Assembly (NCBI GenBank): GCA_013298075.1
Contig: JAAFJG010000010.1
Span: forward strand, 1-64,000
Direction of reading: 5' to 3'
DNA: 64,000 bases
DNA from: Cytophagales bacterium
Lineage (GTDB): Bacteria; Bacteroidota; Bacteroidia; Cytophagales; Microscillaceae
Each line of letters starts with the position of its first letter. Position 1 is the stretch's first letter. Below are positions 9,634-63,566 of this stretch, in pieces. The notes below the pieces were generated by a model. It saw only the letters and a program-made list of their open reading frames with translations, was not told where the DNA came from and made no database searches. The position numbers and the translations under genes were made by a program.

Positions 9634-9778
9634 TTTATTTTGAAAATATAGAAAAATATTAATTTGAAAAATACAGAGATTTCGGCTAAAGCCAACAATT
9701 GAATTGTATATTATTCTCCAGATAAATCTTGAGGCAATTCAAAAAAAAAAATTTCCACAAAACTTCCTAAGAACCAAA
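9634..9778 (-). repeat. Family A element, copy 1 (truncated)
   Basis: Reverse-oriented copy of interspersed family A. Visible are the GGCTAAAGCC hairpin, the CTCCAG/CTTGAG hairpin and the terminal repeat ending TTCCTAAGAACCA. The other terminal repeat is missing, cut off where the GlsB-like gene ends. Confidence 0.8.
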
Positions 9779-13732: not shown

Positions 13733-13789
13733 TTTAAAAATAACTAAGAAAATAAAATAAGAATAAAAAAAGAGAAAACTATTAGAGAA

Positions 13790-13900
13790 CATCAAAAAAA
13801 ACTTATTTTTAGTCCCCTCACCGCTGGGGAGGGTTAGGGTGGGGCTTTTTAGCAAAAATTATGCCAATCCCCAGCCCTCCCCAAAGGTGAGGGAGTTTTT
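13790..13900. mobile_element. Family E palindromic element, copy 1
   Basis: Inverted arms CCCCTCACCGCTGGGGAGGG and CCCTCCCCAAAGGTGAGGGA (13814-13895) enclose about 30 bp. The outer flank ACTTATTTTTAGT also recurs in copy 2 at 19279-19496. It sits between the unknown small gene and the TolC gene, inside what is otherwise one operon, and could end or pause transcription there. Confidence 0.8.
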
Positions 13901-13922
13901 TTATTTAATTCTTTATAAACAA

Positions 13923-15288: not shown

Positions 15289-15535
15289 GTTATTAGGAAA
15301 TTATTGCGGACTATATTTTAACATACTATTATTTTGCATAGAAATGAAGTTTATTTCAGGGATCTTCTAAAAAATATAATACCCATTTAAAAGCGTTTTT
15401 TATCGGAAAAATTCCTTCAAGGTTTTAAAAACCTTGAAGGAATCGTACTCGGTGGGTATATTATTTGCTACTTAGTCCCTCATAGCTATTTATGATAAAA
15501 TAAAATTAGCTCTGCAATAATTTTTCATGAACCTT
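15289..15535 (+). repeat. Family A element, copy 2, interrupted by B1
   Basis: The left terminal repeat TATTAGGAAATTATTGCGG is at 15291-15309. The right end TGCAATAATTTTTCATGAACC (15512-15532) is its partner. The interior hairpin ATGAAGTTTATTTCAT is split by element B1 with a duplicated TCA. Together with a further diverged terminal-repeat scrap near 15217-15240 this explains most of the 508-bp gap without genes. Confidence 0.75.
15359..15479. mobile_element. Family B element B1 (121 bp)
   Basis: Imperfect 27-bp terminal inverted repeats start GGGATCTTCTAAAAAATA and end GCTACTTAGTCCC, with TACCCA/TGGGTA at their inner edges. The direct repeat TCA flanks it (15356-15358 and 15480-15482). The core is a 16-bp stem ATTCCTTCAAGGTTTT and its complement. 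It codes for nothing. Confidence 0.85.
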
Positions 15536-16657: not shown

Positions 16658-16742
16658 AATTATTTTTAATTAAATTTTTTGCATTAGACTTATTATTTTT
16701 GTCAAAGTTTAATGATAATCAATTATTTTACATACATTTTAT

Positions 16743-16879
16743 AATAGAGTTTTTTAAAGGGTAACCAAAAATTGACAAAAATCATTAAAAATTCAAGAAA
16801 AAAGAAAAAAAATCCGTATTAATCCGCTAAATCCGTGTTATCTGTGTGCTAAAATCTCTTTCATTTAAAAAATACTAAT
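16743..16879 (+). repeat. Family D repeat, copy 1 (137 bp)
   Basis: Nearly identical to 48081-48217 over 137 bp, beginning AATAGAGTTTTTTAAA and ending TTTAAAAAATACTAAT, with AATCCGTGTTATCTGTG-like text in the middle. No clear terminal inverted repeats. It fills about half of the 317-bp gap between the serine hydrolase and porin genes; the remaining part (16905-16945) holds a fragment resembling family F (TCCTTGGTCT...GTGTGCCAC). Confidence 0.85.
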
Positions 16880-19245: not shown

Positions 19246-19544
19246 GGGACTAAGTAGAAAATATTATACCCAAAAAAACTCCCTCACCTTTGGGGAGGGC
19301 TGGGGCAGTGTTGTTAAGTTCTAATATTTGTCAGGTAAATTATTTTACAAATCAAAATATAATTTGCCAAATCTATAACATTTTCAAAAAATTATAGATT
19401 TTTTACAGAATATTATACAAGTTAATTTCTATTTTATTTGTTAAAAAAAAAAGAATTTAACAACACTGACCCTAACCCTCCCCAGCGGTGAGGGAACTAA
19501 AAATAAGTTTTTTTGAGTGGATAGTTTATTTTTTATATGCTCCC
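19246..19544. mobile_element. Family B element B2 (299 bp), nested in a family A copy
   Basis: It begins GGGACTAAGTAGAAAATA and ends TTTTTTATATGCTCCC. The trinucleotide TAA is duplicated at both edges (19243-19245, 19545-19547); removing one copy and the insert restores the family A text AGCTAAAGCC. Its core is family E copy 2. Confidence 0.9.
19279..19496. mobile_element. Family E element, copy 2 (218 bp)
   Basis: Terminal inverted repeats of about 39 bp: CTCCCTCACCTTTGGGGAGG at the left and the complement of TTCCCTCACCGCTGGGGAGG at the right, both continuing to a shared inner end CAGTGTTGTTAA. The 140-bp interior is AT-rich and non-coding. It forms the core of B2. Confidence 0.88.
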
Positions 19545-19658
19545 TAAAGCCAACGATTAAATTGTATATTAGCCTCCAGATAAATCTGTAAGCAATTCAA
19601 AAAAATATTTCAAAATATATATTTTCATTTTCCTACGAATTTTATCCAAAAAAATTCT

Positions 19659-19714: not shown

Positions 19715-21271
19715 ATGCAAAATTACACCATTCTTTGGGCTGATGATGAAATCGATTTGCTCAAACCTCATATTCTTTTTTTGAATAAAAAAGGATACCA
19801 AGTTACGCCTGTCAATAGTGGGGCAGATGCCTTAGAAAAAGTAACAGAAGAAAATTTTGATATTATTTTTTTAGATGAAAATATGCCCGGTATGACAGGC
19901 TTAGAAACATTGGCACAAATCAAAAATATCAGACCCAATACGCCTGTGGTGATGATTACCAAAAGCGAAGAAGAAAGTATTATGGAAGAAGCAATCGGCT
20001 CAAAAATTGCTGATTATTTATTAAAACCTATCAATCCGAATCAAATTGTGTTATCTATCAAAAAAATATTAGAAGGAAAAAGATTGGTCAGTGAAAAAAC
20101 TAATTCAGGTTATCAACAAGATTTTAGGCATTTGATGATGGCTTTTAATGATGACCTCAACCACGAAGAATGGGTCGATATTTATAAAAAATTAGTGTAT
20201 TGGGAATTAGAAATCGAAAATACGCAAAATCAAGAAATGGAACACGTCTTAGAAACGCAAAAAAATGAAGCAAATACAAATTTTGTTCGTTTTATTGAGG
20301 ATAATTATGAAGATTGGTTGAATGACCCAGATTCTGATAAACCTGTACTTTCGCACCAAATTTTAAAGAAAAAAGTTTTTCCATTGATAGAAAATCCAGT
20401 ACCTACATTTTTCTTTTTGATTGATAATTTAAGGCTTGACCAATGGCGTATTTTGGCGACTATTTTGTCTGATTATTATAATATTGAAGTAGATGAAACT
20501 TATTATTCTATCCTACCGACCACAACAGCTTACGCCAGAAATGCCATTTTTTCGGGAATGATGCCTTCTGATATGTTAAAACATCACCCTGATTTGTGGG
20601 TTCAAGAAGATGATGACGAAGGAAAAAATTTGAGCGAAGAAGAATTTTTAGCACGACAATTAAAGAAAAATAAATTAGATATTAAATTTTCATATCATAA
20701 AATTATTACACAACATCAAGGAAAACAAGTCTTGGATTCTTTTGAAAATATGATGAAAAATCAACTCAATGTGTTGGTTTATAATTTTGTGGATATGCTC
20801 TCACACGCACGTACAGACGTAACGATGATAAAAGAAATGATGCCCGACGAATCGGCTTATCGTTCTTTGACAAAATCTTGGTTTTTACATTCTCCTTTGT
20901 TAGATTTATTGAAAAGATTGTCTTCTCGAAAAGTAAAAGTGGTAATTACTACTGATCATGGAACTATTTGTGTCCGCAGACCTTTTAAAATTGTGGGAGA
21001 TAAAACTGTAAATACCAATTTGCGTTATAAACAAGGAAAAAATTTGAGTTATGATGGCGATGATGTATTGATTTGCACAAAACCAGAACGTTTTTTCTTA
21101 CCTCGATTAAATGTTTCTACGTCTTATGTATTTGCGGTGAAAGATTATTTTTTCGCTTATCCTAATAATTTTAATCATTATGTCAATTATTATAAAGATA
21201 CTTTTCAGCACGGAGGAGTTTCTTTGGAAGAAGTAATTGTACCTTTTGCAGTGTTGAGTAGTAAGCCGTAA
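19715..21271 (+). CDS. porX: PorX, T9SS response regulator with PglZ-type phosphatase domain
   Basis: A 518-aa protein with the PorX architecture. Residues 1-120 form a receiver domain with acidic pocket D10-D11-E12 and phospho-acceptor Asp54 (IIFLDENMPGM). A helical linker follows, then from about 215 an alkaline-phosphatase-superfamily PglZ domain with FFLIDNLRLDQWR, TTTAYARNAIFSG, and the metal-site text TTDHGTICVRRP. PorX controls type IX secretion genes with the kinase PorY and ECF sigma SigP in Porphyromonas, and its PglZ domain hydrolyses cyclic oligonucleotides and similar phosphodiesters. PorY is not encoded nearby. It is a single-gene unit, next to a large T9SS cargo gene. Confidence 0.93.
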   Translation: MQNYTILWADDEIDLLKPHILFLNKKGYQVTPVNSGADALEKVTEENFDIIFLDENMPGMTGLETLAQIKNIRPNTPVVMITKSEEESIMEEAIGSKIADYLLKPINPNQIVLSIKKILEGKRLVSEKTNSGYQQDFRHLMMAFNDDLNHEEWVDIYKKLVYWELEIENTQNQEMEHVLETQKNEANTNFVRFIEDNYEDWLNDPDSDKPVLSHQILKKKVFPLIENPVPTFFFLIDNLRLDQWRILATILSDYYNIEVDETYYSILPTTTAYARNAIFSGMMPSDMLKHHPDLWVQEDDDEGKNLSEEEFLARQLKKNKLDIKFSYHKIITQHQGKQVLDSFENMMKNQLNVLVYNFVDMLSHARTDVTMIKEMMPDESAYRSLTKSWFLHSPLLDLLKRLSSRKVKVVITTDHGTICVRRPFKIVGDKTVNTNLRYKQGKNLSYDGDDVLICTKPERFFLPRLNVSTSYVFAVKDYFFAYPNNFNHYVNYYKDTFQHGGVSLEEVIVPFAVLSSKP

Positions 21272-21280
21272 TTGATGAAA

Positions 21281-21434
21281 AATTAGTAACAAAAAATAAG
21301 TTACTCAAGTATTAAGAAATTTGTTTTTTTATTTTTGAAATACACACACATACAAAGCGGAGGCGTTAACGCCTCCGCTTTATATGTGTGTAGTAAATGA
21401 TATTTTATTGGGTATAATTTTTCTATTTAGTTTC
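21281..21434 (-). mobile_element. Family B element B3 (154 bp)
   Basis: Matches B4 along both arms in reverse orientation (shared ACAAAAAATAAGTTACTCA-like left arm, then AAGTATTAAGAAATTTGT; right arm TGGGTATAAT...TATTTAG). The core at 21341-21392 is a different long palindrome, AAGCGGAGGC-GTTAAC-GCCTCCGCTT with TACACACACAT arms. The ends have decayed and the target duplication is not evident. It lies 9 bp after the porX stop and may act as its terminator hairpin. Confidence 0.8.
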
Positions 21435-21453: not shown

Positions 21454-21505
21454 TTTAGCCTTTTATCACCAAAAATAATTTTATTTTGGGTGATAAAAGG
21501 CTAAA
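21454..21505 (-). terminator. Terminator of the large T9SS cargo gene
   Basis: A 17-bp stem TTTAGCCTTTTATCACC / GGTGATAAAAGGCTAAA with a loop of about 17 nt, followed by a run of T on the minus strand, 41 bp past the stop codon. Confidence 0.85.
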
Positions 21506-21545: not shown

Positions 21546-24500
21546 TTAATCAACCATTAATTTTTGGCGATACACTTGTTTATTGCCTTGAATTTCGATG
21601 ATATACATACCTTTTTGTTGATTTTGTAATTGATTGCTCAATACTTTTTCAGTATTTTCTAAGGTATCATTGCCGTTTAAAACAGTTTTTCCTTGTGCAT
21701 CAATCAATCTCCAATTCACTACATTTTGTCTATTTTCATTGCTTTGAATAAAAATTTCACCTTTTGTTGGATTTGGATATATCAACATTTTGTCTGTATT
21801 ATTTTTGATAAAAATAACTTGACTTACACTTTCTGCTCCATTCAAATCTACTTGACGCAAACGATAATAAGCATTAGTTAAGAAAGTATCATCAGTAAAA
21901 TTATAGTTTTTAATCGTACTCGAATTGATATTTCCTGATATAATTCCTACTCTTGAAAAATTAACAGCATCAAGACTTTTTTCGATTTCAAATTGTTTGT
22001 TATTGATTTCGGTAGCCGTTTGCCAAGTTAATTTTGCTTGTGTTTTATTGATCATTTGTCCATTGAAATTTAATAGAGAAACGGGAAGAGCATTGTTATT
22101 TGACGAAGTCCCTGTAATAGAAGAAAACGAGTTATATCCTAAAACAGTGATTGTATTTTGACCTGCGTTTAATATACTTACTAATGGATTAGGTGCAACA
22201 CCTGCGGGATAAGTTACCCAACCCGAACCTGTACTCCATTTTCCTTGTAATAAAGTAGTTTCGTCCATTCCTACTAAATCAGCATCAGCATAAGAATAAA
22301 CAACCGTTGTATTTGTACCTGCTGCATTACCAGAAGTTACATCTACTTGGAAAATTCTTTTTACGCCAATACCTGAACCTCTGTAATGTCTTCTTCTTAC
22401 GGTTACGGTATATGAACCTGATGTAGTTTGTAAAAATAGCCCAGCAAGAGGAGTAGGCACGCTGTTAGAAACAGTTCTTCCTGTTAAAATAATACTACCA
22501 CCTTGACCAGATTCATTAGTAGCAGACTCGTCTGTAATATAACCTGCAGACGTAAGAATATTTTCTCCAACATTCCCTGTTGAACCACAATTTATGTTCT
22601 TTCCATTCAAATTTAAAGAAGCCGTATTTGATGCCGCTAACATATCTACGCCAACACTCACATTAATATCTCGTTCAAGTTTTACTTTGCCCGCCGTTTT
22701 ATTGATTACCAATATAGAAAATGTAGTAAGAGTTGTACCACTGATAATTTGCTCAGTAGCCCCAGCATTTAAACTTAATTTATTAGTTGTTAATGCAGTA
22801 AAAGTTCCATTATTAGTGAAATTTCCGTTTAGGCTTATGTTACCAACACCATTTGTGGTGAATGTGCCTCCAGTATTGATTGTCATATTTCCTTGACATA
22901 CTAAATCTCCCCCTGTCGAGCCTGACCCAATAAAAGTCCCATTCACTACCAAACTACCTACGGTAAGTGTTACAGTTACTGGATTTATATTCATAGAAAA
23001 AGTACTACCACTCCCTATAGTCAATACATTGGTAACATTACGAATAATACCTGTGCCACTATTTGCTCCCAAATCTAAAGTAGTATTATTAGTTAATTCT
23101 ACGTTATATGGAGTTTTAGTATTAGTCCACTCAATACTTCTACCATAAGTAGTTCCTGAATTATAACGTAAAGTAGAGCCTGTTAGATAATTAGGTGCAT
23201 TTGTATTAGCAAAACCACCTGCATTAATCTGAAATACTCCACTCATATCTGTAAAGTCGTTTCCAAAATTAATACCATTACTTGTCGTTAATGTAACACC
23301 TGAGCCAAAAGAAAGCCTGTTTGAACCCGCAGAACGTGTGATAGATAAAGTAGCACTCACATTCATAGTCGAAGCTGTACTTGCTAAAATAGATTTTGCG
23401 GCTGTACCATCATAAGAAATACTTCCTCCTGAAAATGTAAGTGTTTTTCCATTTAAGTCAAAATCACCTGCTGTTAAAGTTAGTGTATTGCTGATAGTTG
23501 TATTTGTACCTAAAATAAGTTTACTTGTACCTTTATCAACAATCATAAAAGGAAAATTACTTGAGGCACTTCCACCTATTGTCTGGTCGGAAGTACCTAG
23601 AAAAAAAACAGCACGACCAACACTACTAACAATGGCATCAAAAGTACCATTATTCGTAAAATTACCTTCTATTCTCAAATCACCACCACTTGCACTTGAT
23701 AAGGTTAGGGTTGCTGATGGAGAGATAGTTAATATTCCTTTCATTTGTCTAGATTGAGTAGAATTACCAAAGCTTAGGCTGCGTAAATTCATTATTGTTA
23801 CATTATTAGGTACACCTGCTCCTAAAGTAGCATTAGGTGTCCATTCATTAAAAGCAGTATATCCATTTACATTATAAGCTAAAGTAGAAGATGCCCCATA
23901 AGTAGGAGGATTAGATATATTACCACCATTGATCTGTAAGTTCCCTGTAACAATATCACCACTTAAATTTACACTTCCTGTATTAATATCTACATTTTTG
24001 AAAGTTATTGCATTTCCCACAGTAGTACCATTTGAAAATACTACTGTTCCATCATTTGCAACAAAAGAAGTATTGGCTGCTCCATTATTAGTGAAATTAC
24101 CAGCTACTGTTAGTTGCCATGGTTGTCCTGCTTCACTTATAAGTACTCGTCCTGACGCAATAGTAATATCAGTTACGGTAGCATTTTGGTTGAGTGTTAC
24201 ATTATGATTTATAGAAACAGGATATCCAGCTATAGGAATAGCATTCGCTGTCCAAGTAGCAGGGGTGTTCCAATTTCCGTCTAGACTAGTTGTCCAAGAA
24301 GGATTTACTGTATAGGAGTAATTTGATACCCCATTAGTATTAGCATTGATTGTAAAAAAATCAGCGTTATTACCATTATCAAGTACTCCACTATTTCCTG
24401 ATGTAAATACATAATAGTAAATAGTAGTGGAAGGATTATTTGAAGTAGAAGGTATAGATGCTGTATATGTAGTTCCAGAACCTGTCATTGTACTAACAGT

Positions 24501-25088
24501 AGAAGTACTAAAATTACTAACAGTGCTATATCTTAAATACACGCCTTGTCCTGTTGGTAAAGACATGTCAAGATTGGCAGTTACCGTAACATCTTGTCCA
24601 GGGAATACATTGTTAGGATTTCTTGTTACACTACTCACAGAAGCAATAGAAGTACTTTGAATTTCAAATATAGCAATTCGAGTCACTCCAGCGTCTACTT
24701 TAAAAACATATCTTCTATTCGTAGCAGTTACCATATTAAAAGCATTTGAGGTTCCATCAGATATGTTTGCTGAATAATCACTATTAGGTGGTATAATGGT
24801 TCCATTTGTATTGGGTTGTCTATCTTGTGAATTAGCATTATTTCTAAATCTGAAAGATGAACTTCCCACCGCGCTAGAAGTTACCAACTTATAAGAGCCA
24901 AAAGCAAGTCCCTCAAATGGATAACCAATTGAGTAATTTTTAGCACCACCAGTGCCTGATTGATTGTCTAATTCTGCTGTAAATAATTTGGGTTGCGCCA
25001 CAGCCACCCCAAACCACAAAAAAGAAAACACACAAAAGAGCCATGTAAATTTATAGGCTCGTTTTTTTAAGTTGATAAAATTGTTCAT
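21546..25088 (-). CDS. Large secreted T9SS cargo protein, adhesin-like (1180 aa)
   Basis: A surface or secreted protein. Residues 12-32 are a signal peptide (LFCVFSFLWFGVAVAQ). Residues 35-270 contain an Ig-like region with SSVTRNPNNVFPGQDVTVTA. From about 270 to 900 there are Ser/Thr/Asn/Gly-rich beta-solenoid-like repeats, where GNFTNNGTF recurs at least four times together with LTLTAGDFDLNG-like strands. About 995-1090 is a fibronectin-like domain (ALPVSLLNFNGQ...LTWQTATEINNKQFEIEKS). The end, PNPTKGEIFIQSN...KGMYIIEI...YRQKLMVD, is the type A T9SS sorting domain. Function is probably adhesion or matrix. It is a single-gene unit with promoter and terminator. Confidence 0.92.
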   Translation of the reverse strand: MNNFINLKKRAYKFTWLFCVFSFLWFGVAVAQPKLFTAELDNQSGTGGAKNYSIGYPFEGLAFGSYKLVTSSAVGSSSFRFRNNANSQDRQPNTNGTIIPPNSDYSANISDGTSNAFNMVTATNRRYVFKVDAGVTRIAIFEIQSTSIASVSSVTRNPNNVFPGQDVTVTANLDMSLPTGQGVYLRYSTVSNFSTSTVSTMTGSGTTYTASIPSTSNNPSTTIYYYVFTSGNSGVLDNGNNADFFTINANTNGVSNYSYTVNPSWTTSLDGNWNTPATWTANAIPIAGYPVSINHNVTLNQNATVTDITIASGRVLISEAGQPWQLTVAGNFTNNGAANTSFVANDGTVVFSNGTTVGNAITFKNVDINTGSVNLSGDIVTGNLQINGGNISNPPTYGASSTLAYNVNGYTAFNEWTPNATLGAGVPNNVTIMNLRSLSFGNSTQSRQMKGILTISPSATLTLSSASGGDLRIEGNFTNNGTFDAIVSSVGRAVFFLGTSDQTIGGSASSNFPFMIVDKGTSKLILGTNTTISNTLTLTAGDFDLNGKTLTFSGGSISYDGTAAKSILASTASTMNVSATLSITRSAGSNRLSFGSGVTLTTSNGINFGNDFTDMSGVFQINAGGFANTNAPNYLTGSTLRYNSGTTYGRSIEWTNTKTPYNVELTNNTTLDLGANSGTGIIRNVTNVLTIGSGSTFSMNINPVTVTLTVGSLVVNGTFIGSGSTGGDLVCQGNMTINTGGTFTTNGVGNISLNGNFTNNGTFTALTTNKLSLNAGATEQIISGTTLTTFSILVINKTAGKVKLERDINVSVGVDMLAASNTASLNLNGKNINCGSTGNVGENILTSAGYITDESATNESGQGGSIILTGRTVSNSVPTPLAGLFLQTTSGSYTVTVRRRHYRGSGIGVKRIFQVDVTSGNAAGTNTTVVYSYADADLVGMDETTLLQGKWSTGSGWVTYPAGVAPNPLVSILNAGQNTITVLGYNSFSSITGTSSNNNALPVSLLNFNGQMINKTQAKLTWQTATEINNKQFEIEKSLDAVNFSRVGIISGNINSSTIKNYNFTDDTFLTNAYYRLRQVDLNGAESVSQVIFIKNNTDKMLIYPNPTKGEIFIQSNENRQNVVNWRLIDAQGKTVLNGNDTLENTEKVLSNQLQNQQKGMYIIEIQGNKQVYRQKLMVD

Positions 25089-30660: not shown

Positions 30661-30770
30661 AAAAGACTTTGGCTAAAGCCAACAATTGAATTTTATATCA
30701 TCCTCCAGATAAATCTGGAGGCAATTCAAAAAAAAATTTTCAATTTCCAGACAAATTTTTTAAGAACCAA
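30661..30770 (-). repeat. Family A element, copy 4 (truncated)
   Basis: Reverse orientation: TTTGGCTAAAGCCAA hairpin, perfect CCTCCAGATAAATCTGGAGG hairpin, GCAATTCAAAA and the terminal repeat ending TTAAGAACCAAAA, 7 bp beyond the rpiB stop codon. The remaining 200 bp of this 430-bp gap (30444-30660) are AT-rich and show nothing I can name. Confidence 0.85.
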
Positions 30771-39148: not shown

Positions 39149-39346
39149 TGGTTCTTAGGAAATTTGTGCGAAAAATGTTTTTTTGAATTGCCTCCAGATT
39201 TATCTGGAGGATAATAAAAAATTCAATCATTGGCTTTAGCCAAAATCTCTACATTTTTCAAATTGATATTTTTTTAATAAATGGCATAAATGCCATTTCT
39301 ATTCATACAGAATAAAATTATATCCACAATATTTTCCCACAAACCA
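39149..39346 (+). repeat. Family A element, copy 6 (full length, about 198 bp)
   Basis: Both ends are present: TTGGTTCTTAGGAAATTTGTG at the left and CAATATTTTCCCACAAACCA at the right. Inside are CCTCCAGATTTATCTGGAGG, TTGGCTTTAGCCAA and AAATGGCATAAATGCCATTT, three consecutive hairpins. Confidence 0.88.
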
Positions 39347-39360
39347 CATACTTTTATTTG

Positions 39361-39513
39361 GATAGAAATGAAATTTATCCAATTTATTTGAAATACAAAA
39401 AACGTATAAAATTTCGGCTAAAGCCAACTATCAAATTGTATATTAACCTCCAGATAAATCTGGAGGCAATTCAAGAAATACATTGTCAGCACCTGCACAA
39501 ATTTCCCAAAAAC
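39361..39513 (-). repeat. Family A element, copy 7 (reverse, truncated)
   Basis: Directly follows copy 6 in opposite orientation: TTCGGCTAAAGCCAA, CCTCCAGATAAATCTGGAGG, GCACAAATTTCCCAAAAAC. Copies 6 and 7 together make a head-to-head pair that fills the dtd upstream gap. Confidence 0.82.
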
Positions 39514-46685: not shown

Positions 46686-46702
46686 AATATAGTTTTTTTT
46701 AC

Positions 46703-46808
46703 TCCTCGCTCTGTGACACACAGACCGAAACAAACACATACCGAAATAAAAGTTACTAAGCTATTTCGCGGTCTGTGTGCCACAGTGTGTACCACAGACC
46801 AATGAGAA
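46703..46808. repeat. Family F palindrome, copy 1
   Basis: Inverted repeat built from TGTGACACACAGACCGAAA and CGGTCTGTGTGCCACA around ACATACCGAAATAAAAGTTACTAAG. Its right arm has an extra GTGTGTACCACAGACC duplication. The second copy is at 63493-63566. It follows 17 bp after the ATPase stop and could act as its terminator. Confidence 0.8.
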
Positions 46809-47795: not shown

Positions 47796-48020
47796 CAACC
47801 ATTTTAACTGATAATATAAAATTCAATCCTTAACTTCAGGGACTAAATAAATAATATTATACCGATAAAATGTTATTTGTTTATACTTCTCAAACACAGT
47901 CGTTAACGGCTGTGTTTGAGAAGTCTGGTATATTTCCAAAAATAAGAGACAAATTTCTTAATACTTGGGTAATTTATTTTTTAGATGCTACCTCATCCGA
48001 AATTTTTATATTATTCAAAT
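47796..48020 (+). repeat. Family A element, copy 8 (decayed), interrupted by B4
   Basis: ATAATATAAAATTCAATCCT before, and CCGAAATTTTTATATTATTC after B4, correspond to the family A text on both sides of the GGCTTTAGCC hairpin. The outer ends have decayed. Confidence 0.65.
47839..47992 (+). mobile_element. Family B element B4 (154 bp)
   Basis: Begins GGGACTAAATAAATAATATT and ends TTTTTTAGATGCTACC. TCA is duplicated at both edges (47836-47838 and 47993-47995). The core is a palindrome CTTCTCAAACACAG-TCGTTAACGG-CTGTGTTTGAGAAG. The arms match B3 in reverse, including AAATTTCTTAATACTTGGGT. Confidence 0.88.
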
Positions 48021-48080
48021 TAAATTTAGGAAAGCATCAAAATATCTAAAACTCAAAATAATTAGTTTTAATTTTTTTTT

Positions 48081-48217
48081 AATAGAGTTTTTTAAATGGT
48101 AGCCAAAAATTGACAAAAATCATTAAAAATTCGAGAAAAAAGAAAAAAAATCCGTACTAGTCCGTTAAATCTGTGTTATCTGTGTGCTAAAATCTCTTTC
48201 ATTTAAAAAATACTAAT
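48081..48217 (+). repeat. Family D repeat, copy 2
   Basis: A near-identical copy of 16743-16879 (137 bp) with about ten substitutions, for example TCCGTACTAGTCCGTTAAAT in place of TCCGTATTAATCCGCTAAAT. It lies 54 bp from the hslU stop codon. Confidence 0.85.
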
Positions 48218-52600: not shown

Positions 52601-52817
52601 TTTGGTTCTTAGGAAATTTGTGCGAAAGATGAATTTTTTTTGAAATGTGTTTTTTGAATTGCCTCCAGATTTATTTGGAGTATAATATAAAATTCAATTC
52701 TTTGCCTGAGCCGAAAATATTTCCGTTTTTCAAATTGATATTTTTCTATATTTTCAAGATAAATGGCTATTTATAATAGAATAAAATTAGACCCGCAATA
52801 ATTTCCCATGAACCAAA
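52601..52817 (+). repeat. Family A element, copy 9 (full length, best terminal repeats)
   Basis: The left end TTTGGTTCTTAGGAAATTTG and the right end CAATAATTTCCCATGAACCA are inverted copies over about 26 bp. Inside are GCCTCCAGATTTATTTGGAG, GCCTGAGCC (a degenerate GGCTTTAGCC hairpin) and AAATGGCTATTTATAAT. A further scrap with CAATAATTTTCTAAGAAACA lies at 52870-52892. Confidence 0.88.
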
Positions 52818-54720: not shown

Positions 54721-54899
54721 TGAAATGTATTTTTTGAATTGCCTATAGATTTATCTGGAGGTTAATATAAAACATAATTCTTGGCTTTAGCCGAAATTTT
54801 TATGTTTCTCAAATGGATATTTTTCTATATTTTAAAAATAAAAAAATATTCATATATATAGACCAAAATTAGCTCACCAATAATTTCATAAGAACCAAA
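54721..54899 (+). repeat. Family A element, copy 10, between rplS and the reverse transcriptase
   Basis: GAATTGCCTATAGATTTATC-TGGAGG, TTGGCTTTAGCCGAAA and the right terminal repeat CACCAATAATTTCATAAGAA are present. The left terminal repeat is replaced by the rplS terminator. It fills most of the 310-bp gap before the reverse transcriptase gene. Confidence 0.82.
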
Positions 54900-63492: not shown

Positions 63493-63566
63493 TTCCTTGG
63501 TCTGTGGCACACAGACCGAAACAAAAGTTACTAAGATGTTTCGGTCTGTGTGCCACAGACCGAGGA
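63493..63566. repeat. Family F palindrome, copy 2
   Basis: Two 30-bp arms, TCCTTGGTCTGTGGCACACA-type and its inverse, match at 29 of 30 positions around the loop AAAGTTACTAAGA. The whole lies between an ATTTGGAGAT repeat (two direct copies at 63435-63466) and an inverted ATCTCCAAAT at 63586-63595. It separates the convergent arginyl-transferase and ExbD genes and may terminate both. Confidence 0.88.

Follow-up and report, generated by a model that had tools for sequence, protein, structure and literature searches.

Paired drift and exchange of palindromic cores in a MITE superfamily of a Cytophagales genome

Introduction

Prokaryotic MITEs that duplicate a TNA target are short and gene-free, possess terminal inverted repeats and a target duplication, and occupy intergenic sites at high copy number, all of which they share with the elements described here; together with REPINs, MITEs already cover most of the present system. 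SPRITE elements of pneumococcus are terminator-like, according to the sections of PMC10969869 drawn on here, and template switching is described in excerpted text as homogenising the arms of inverted repeats and inverting their spacers (PMC8604942), and as maintaining hairpins (PMC8794818). It is an old question which of three processes preserves long hairpins: selection on RNA, selection on transposition, or the use of one arm as template for the other.

We analysed a 64-kb window (the whole stretch of DNA under study, 64,000 nucleotides) and searched the 4.71-Mb draft genome of 153 contigs to which it belongs. In this single genome, more than 30 independent sites carry a copy of one palindrome, with arms that act as a rough clock, and the genome also holds several unrelated palindromes in the same ends and the same palindrome in unrelated ends, so that the competing explanations become separable. 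Hairpin cores of this kind are a useful natural test of DNA palindrome maintenance, with symmetry often kept where letters drift.

Results

Hairpin elements in the window

Two 154-bp elements with common arms (74% identity over 143 bp), as described in an initial annotation of the window, are present at 21281–21434 (B3, plus strand) and 47839–47992 (B4, minus strand). The near-perfect palindromes around GTTAAC that the same annotation reported were also recovered: the core of B3 (21344–21391) consists of 24 + 24 nt with 96% complementarity, and that of B4 (47885–47924) of 20 + 20 nt with 95% complementarity and 17 of 18 inner pairs still paired. The left end of B3 is eroded over its outer ~10 bp and its target duplication is unreadable; B4 is flanked by a TGA target duplication. 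RNA folding gave −45.5 kcal/mol for B3 against −21.9 for shuffles (z = −7.3), and z = −5.3 against shuffles for B4. B3 starts ~10 bp past the stop codon of a gene (19715–21271) with response regulator and PglZ domains, which we take to be PorX, and it faces a gene (21546–25088) carrying a Por secretion tail. A second long hairpin (21454–21505, 25 + 25 nt, 96%) lies right after B3, ahead of the end of the 21546–25088 gene.

Three further elements in the window contain other cores. A C-type element (15359–15479, plus strand, TCA target duplication) has the ends of the same superfamily around the unrelated core ATTCCTTCAAGGTTTTAAAAACCTTGAAGGAAT, and a D-type element (19246–19544, minus strand, TTA target duplication) has these ends around a GC-rich CCCTCACC hairpin, with the core CTCCCTCACC..GGTGAGGGAG split by a nested CAGTGTTGTTAA..TTAACAACACTG element. 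A decayed D-type element (13780–13905, plus strand) has kept the GC-rich hairpin core, and its ends are eroded. The observation that unrelated palindromes occur inside the same ends thus holds for 15359–15479 and 19246–19544, which are probably the elements B1 and B2 to which the initial annotation, giving no coordinates, ascribed a third and a fourth core.

Other repeats were also detected. A 143-bp direct repeat (16737–16879 and 48075–48217, 94% identity) has its second copy just past B4, and 30-nt inverted arms (63494–63566, 97% complementary; second partial copy at 46700–46734) represent another hairpin element family. A separate repeat family with a CCTCCAGATTTATCTGGAGG core and an adjoining GGTTCTTAGGAAATTTGTGCG stretch has seven copies in the window (9677–9749, 19535–19607, 30664–30736, 39179–39276, 39409–39481, 52650–52747 and 54730–54827); congeners have ends similar to those of this family, but other palindromes. 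Rfam 15 returned no matches at the gathering score across the 64-kb window.

A MITE superfamily with TNA target duplications

B3 and B4 are members of a high-copy, gene-free MITE superfamily in this Cytophagales (Microscillaceae-like) genome. The 27-bp imperfect terminal inverted repeats were found as 231 ends with ≤3 mismatches, against none for the reversed pattern, and the left-end pattern gave 127 matches against none in the control. Identical 3-bp TNA flanks (TAA, n = 16; TTA, n = 15; TCA, n = 2; TGA, n = 1) surround 34 of the 42 distinct elements for which the left and the right end could both be recognised in the genome stretches examined, whereas shuffling of partners (2000 times) gave 15.1 on average and 25 at most. 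Paired terminal ends and TNA target duplications identify the superfamily as MITEs. Most elements are ~120–165 bp long (72–165 bp where no element is nested inside), with no transposase gene within, and the short non-coding elements of the superfamily nearly always carry a central hairpin. The shortest of these lengths belongs to a 72-bp element (L131, 236–307) with little beyond both ends.

Judging from the TNA duplication, we take the transposase of the superfamily to be IS5-like. The draft genome contains four PF01609 matches, and no superfamily ends (≤5 mismatches) were found in the loci examined (L122–L125, L144 and L145), so an IS5-type source transposase did not emerge from these loci.

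The exact end pattern had no matches among named genomes, a set from which near genomes may be missing. Ends with ≤3 mismatches are present in six of 57 genomes, our own included; one sister genus contributes two of these genomes, with 14 and 6 matches, whereas the two congeners have none. The sister-genus MITEs with similar ends are ~160 bp long and fold over their entire length. When two of these (L146 and L150) were compared on the structure of the latter, 37 of 59 scorable pairs were the same, six were compensated, 12 had single-sided changes and four were double unpaired, which is weak compensation. Among its named relatives, the PglZ protein is closest to those from metagenome-derived genomes that bear the labels Cytophagia and Bacteroidetes (95 and 93% identity), and the next include Microscillaceae. 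Downstream of the PglZ gene the congeners have no superfamily element and carry other hairpin-bearing sequences instead, so the hairpin at this intergenic site varies from species to species: one congener (L159, genome G002) has the long perfect palindrome TTGTAGTACACACTTTTAGTGTGTCGACACACTAAAAGTGTGTACTACAA where the window has B3, and the other has an element with ends like GGTTCTACTAAGATTTATACGG.

Paired drift of one ancestral core

The cores of B3 and B4 had been called unrelated, which proved incorrect. A single 40-bp consensus, ACATCTAAAACGTAGGCGTT|AACGCCTACGTTTTAGATGT, fits all 34 GTTAAC cores examined in a gap-free alignment. Relative to it, the core of B3 has three pairs changed with compensation and one change that is single-sided, and in the core of B4 four of the changed pairs are compensated and one is not. 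The 34 cores were chosen by core pattern (≤6 substitutions and ≥11 pairs), therefore palindromic copies are favoured among them, and copies with length changes in or near the core (L083, L084, L091, L103, L111 and L120) were left out. L091 and L111 are B copies deleted at the centre of the palindrome, the latter still forming a shorter palindrome. The initial annotation had set gradual divergence from one ancestral core against its own view that the palindrome, but not the sequence, is kept; such divergence is what the GTTAAC cores display, but many of the changes fall in complementary pairs.

Covariation among the 32 distinct cores, proposed earlier as a check, exceeded all 500 shuffles by every measure. 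In total, 90.3% of cells were paired (79.5% in shuffles), 13 of 18 pairs had changed on both sides, 72 cells contained paired changes (25.9 in shuffles) and the covariation score was 0.376 (0.186 in shuffles). These shuffles ignore the relatedness of copies; slid controls, which keep it, scored far lower. Fifteen compensated pair states were counted from the pair table, seven of them transversions, with pair 13 occurring as T-A, G-C and C-G and pair 14 as A-T and T-A. Among 40 pair states found in a single copy, only seven were Watson-Crick and 33 were not, which suggests that most resting copies decay. Copies such as L087, L097, L108 and L109 have 5–6 single-sided core changes. Mismatches comprised 35 G.T and 21 A.C in element orientation, and 22 and 18, respectively, in gene sense, hence a preference for one RNA strand is not clear.

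The arms of most copies have diverged further than the core. On average 16.0 of 18 pairs are kept, compared with 10.5 expected had the core decayed like the arms, an expectation that takes the divergence of the arms from consensus, with gaps counted as differences, as age. B4 differs from this pattern, with a core 25% and arms 19% diverged from consensus, and three of its compensated changes were found in no other copy. Its left arm is 97% identical (59/61) to that of L092, a copy which has lost its core. Apart from B4, a genome-wide search for a core resembling that of B4 recovered a single ordinary B core, at three mismatches; a donor elsewhere in the genome, as the initial annotation had envisaged, did not emerge from this search. 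The GTTAAC lineage has kept its palindrome while its sequence drifts through paired changes, transversions included.

Exchange of cores between element families

Between superfamily ends lie at least three palindromes that are not related to one another: the GTTAAC core, the C-type core ATTCCTTCAAGGTTTT(T/A)AAAACCTTGAAGGAAT in a 121-bp element, and the D-type, a GC-rich hairpin in ~160-bp elements which often contain a nested element. This nested element is ~140 bp long and occurs in the D core in either orientation (L113, 2518–2853; L126, 325–658; and 19246–19544 of the window). Its two orientations were considered as proof of core inversion and this was dropped, as the 10-bp duplications in L113 and L126 differ and the insertions look independent.

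Conversely, the same core is found within different ends. GTTAAC cores also lie between other flanks (L093, L094, L099 and L106/L112), and the cores of B3 and L094, for all that the two elements have unrelated flanks, share an unpaired C.A position. A genome-wide search with the CCTTCAAGG core gave 30 matches in forward and 31 in reverse orientation, some of them between the ends TTTGATA..TATCAAA (E-type elements). Comparing 14 C-type with eight E-type elements (112 pairs), core identity was 0.92 and flank identity 0.31 and 0.26, with homology dropping near the edge of the palindrome. The central base of the C-type core is A in six of 16 elements and T in ten, against changes at 12 of 480 cells at its other sites (binomial p = 1.6e-6 for the excess), and the two bases occur in several combinations with other variants. 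Inversion of the centre is not the sole reading of this, since a T/A flip equals one transversion.

The GTTAAC core was found in our own genome only (1 of 77), and the C-type core (≤2 mismatches) in eight of 77 genomes, our own included. Twenty C-type sites occur in G009, from another genus of the family, where the sites examined include three elements (L326, L327 and L334) that have GGTACTAAATGATTTTACTTG ends around the core and identical 8-bp flanks, with the right end weaker in one of the three. In G028, from another family of the order, seven C-type sites have no recognisable MITE arms and their outer pairs covary. The pattern is that of a palindromic core which forms a separate module within a two-part element and has moved between families as a whole palindrome. 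The suggestion that cores are exchanged as cassettes is supported between families, where near-identical palindromes lie within unrelated ends, and is not needed to account for B3 and B4.

Genomic context of the copies

None of the 33 placeable copies lies inside a gene. They occupy 21 codirectional, nine convergent and three divergent gaps (background gaps 36, 7 and 15), with a smaller share of copies in divergent gaps (3/33) than of background gaps (15/58). How well a core pairs did not depend significantly on how far it lies from the 3′ end of a gene (Spearman −0.07, p = 0.70; one-sided rank test, p = 0.39), and 13 of 18 well-paired copies lay within 135 bp of a gene 3′ end compared with seven of 16 others (p = 0.16). 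Gene position therefore gives no significant support for terminator selection. In a terminator scan, B3 gave a match on one strand alone, the minus strand; the GC stem is followed by T-tracts of just 3–4, and no T-run follows the stem of the C-type core. With no significant link to distance and no clear strand preference, an RNA-level terminator role is not supported.

Discussion

We propose that these are two-part MITEs in which the hairpin would be renewed by template switching in transposing lineages while resting copies decay, an explanation to which we give a probability of about 0.5. The superfamily ends would be recognised by a transposase, and lineages still transposing would renew their hairpins by occasional template switching, one arm being copied from the other, which may sometimes flip the centre of the core. 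Copies at rest would simply decay, and cores would pass between families as whole palindromes, the step for which the pattern is directly visible. Rewriting of one arm from the other, as the initial annotation had suggested in the form of templated repair, is plausible, not proven. Covariation agrees with it, and compensated transversions favour it because transversions cannot pass through G.U; the diverged yet still paired core of B4 and the recurrent central-base flips of the C-type core also count towards arm-to-arm copying. Routine copying in place is disfavoured because most single-copy pair states are not Watson-Crick, as is purely neutral template switching, because the core is more conserved than the arms in most copies.

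Selection could act on the element itself, if efficient transposition requires an intact hairpin (e.g., because a short fold-back draws the ends together) and resting copies decay, with no copying mechanism needed. The excess of unpaired single-copy states fits this reading, as do the sister-genus MITEs, whose folding over the whole element indicates that the fold-back shape recurs. It would however require unpaired intermediates for the compensated transversions and central flips, it sits uneasily with a B4 core more diverged than its arms, and the 72-bp element that is nearly just ends implies that the core is not strictly required; we regard it as a tentative possibility. Selection on the transcript is in our view unlikely. 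Here the core would be an intrinsic, often two-way terminator or a stabiliser of mRNA 3′ ends, with compensatory changes selected pair by pair, which is consistent with the strong covariation, the intergenic positions with their gap types and the terminator-like match at B3, but not with pairing that is independent of distance to gene 3′ ends, short or missing T-tracts, and the lack of a clear G.U excess in gene sense.

Two other readings centre on the cores. Cores may be portable modules with their own history, whole palindromes being exchanged between unrelated MITEs (with 3-bp TNA duplications here and 8-bp duplications in a sister genus) and arm copying keeping them symmetrical; as an account in its own right we rate this as somewhat unlikely. 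We also doubt a reading in which a Y1 (HuH) transposase has spread the cores as REP-like hairpins and MITEs carry them as passengers. The C core within differently ended MITEs in G009, and without recognisable MITE arms but with covarying outer pairs in G028, would be expected of such hairpins, and the consulted portions of PMC3116915 describe REPINs whose ends are conserved and flank a spacer that forms a hairpin and often shows compensatory changes; against this, the GTTAAC core was found in none of the 76 other genomes. Integron attC sites were also considered, on account of the GTTAAC motif, and set aside. Simple divergence of a single core by point mutation, with nothing to maintain it, would explain the gap-free alignment of all GTTAAC cores examined to one consensus, but is contradicted, within the limits of the controls, by the excess of paired-change cells and is highly improbable.

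Comparison with known systems

No description of these elements was found in the literature searched, including by core letters, a text search which misses figures and supplements. What did not appear in that literature is a whole palindrome common to unrelated ends with different duplications, together with its paired drift. The superfamily differs from other MITEs with TNA duplications in its interchangeable palindromic cores, common to elements with other ends, and in that no autonomous partner was found among the PF01609 matches checked. Y1 transposition is not known to leave a target-site duplication, and the TNA target duplications and MITE-type terminal repeats of our superfamily set it apart from REPINs and REPs. 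In the excerpted text of PMC3116915 and PMC3733652, REPINs and REPs resemble it in that conserved ends enclose an interior able to form a hairpin and showing compensatory changes, and in having palindromic units with alternative complementary residues in the stem.

The RUP, BOX and SPRITE elements of pneumococcus are likewise small, clustered and inserted into one another; they differ in host and sequence, and core exchange between families was not found described in the sections of PMC10969869 consulted. Template-switch mutation, as presented in the available parts of PMC8604942 and PMC8794818, would share with our elements arm homogenisation, compensatory multi-base change and spacer inversion. 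Those papers show or propose it in yeast genes and in RNA genes, whereas here we infer it for a bacterial MITE family.
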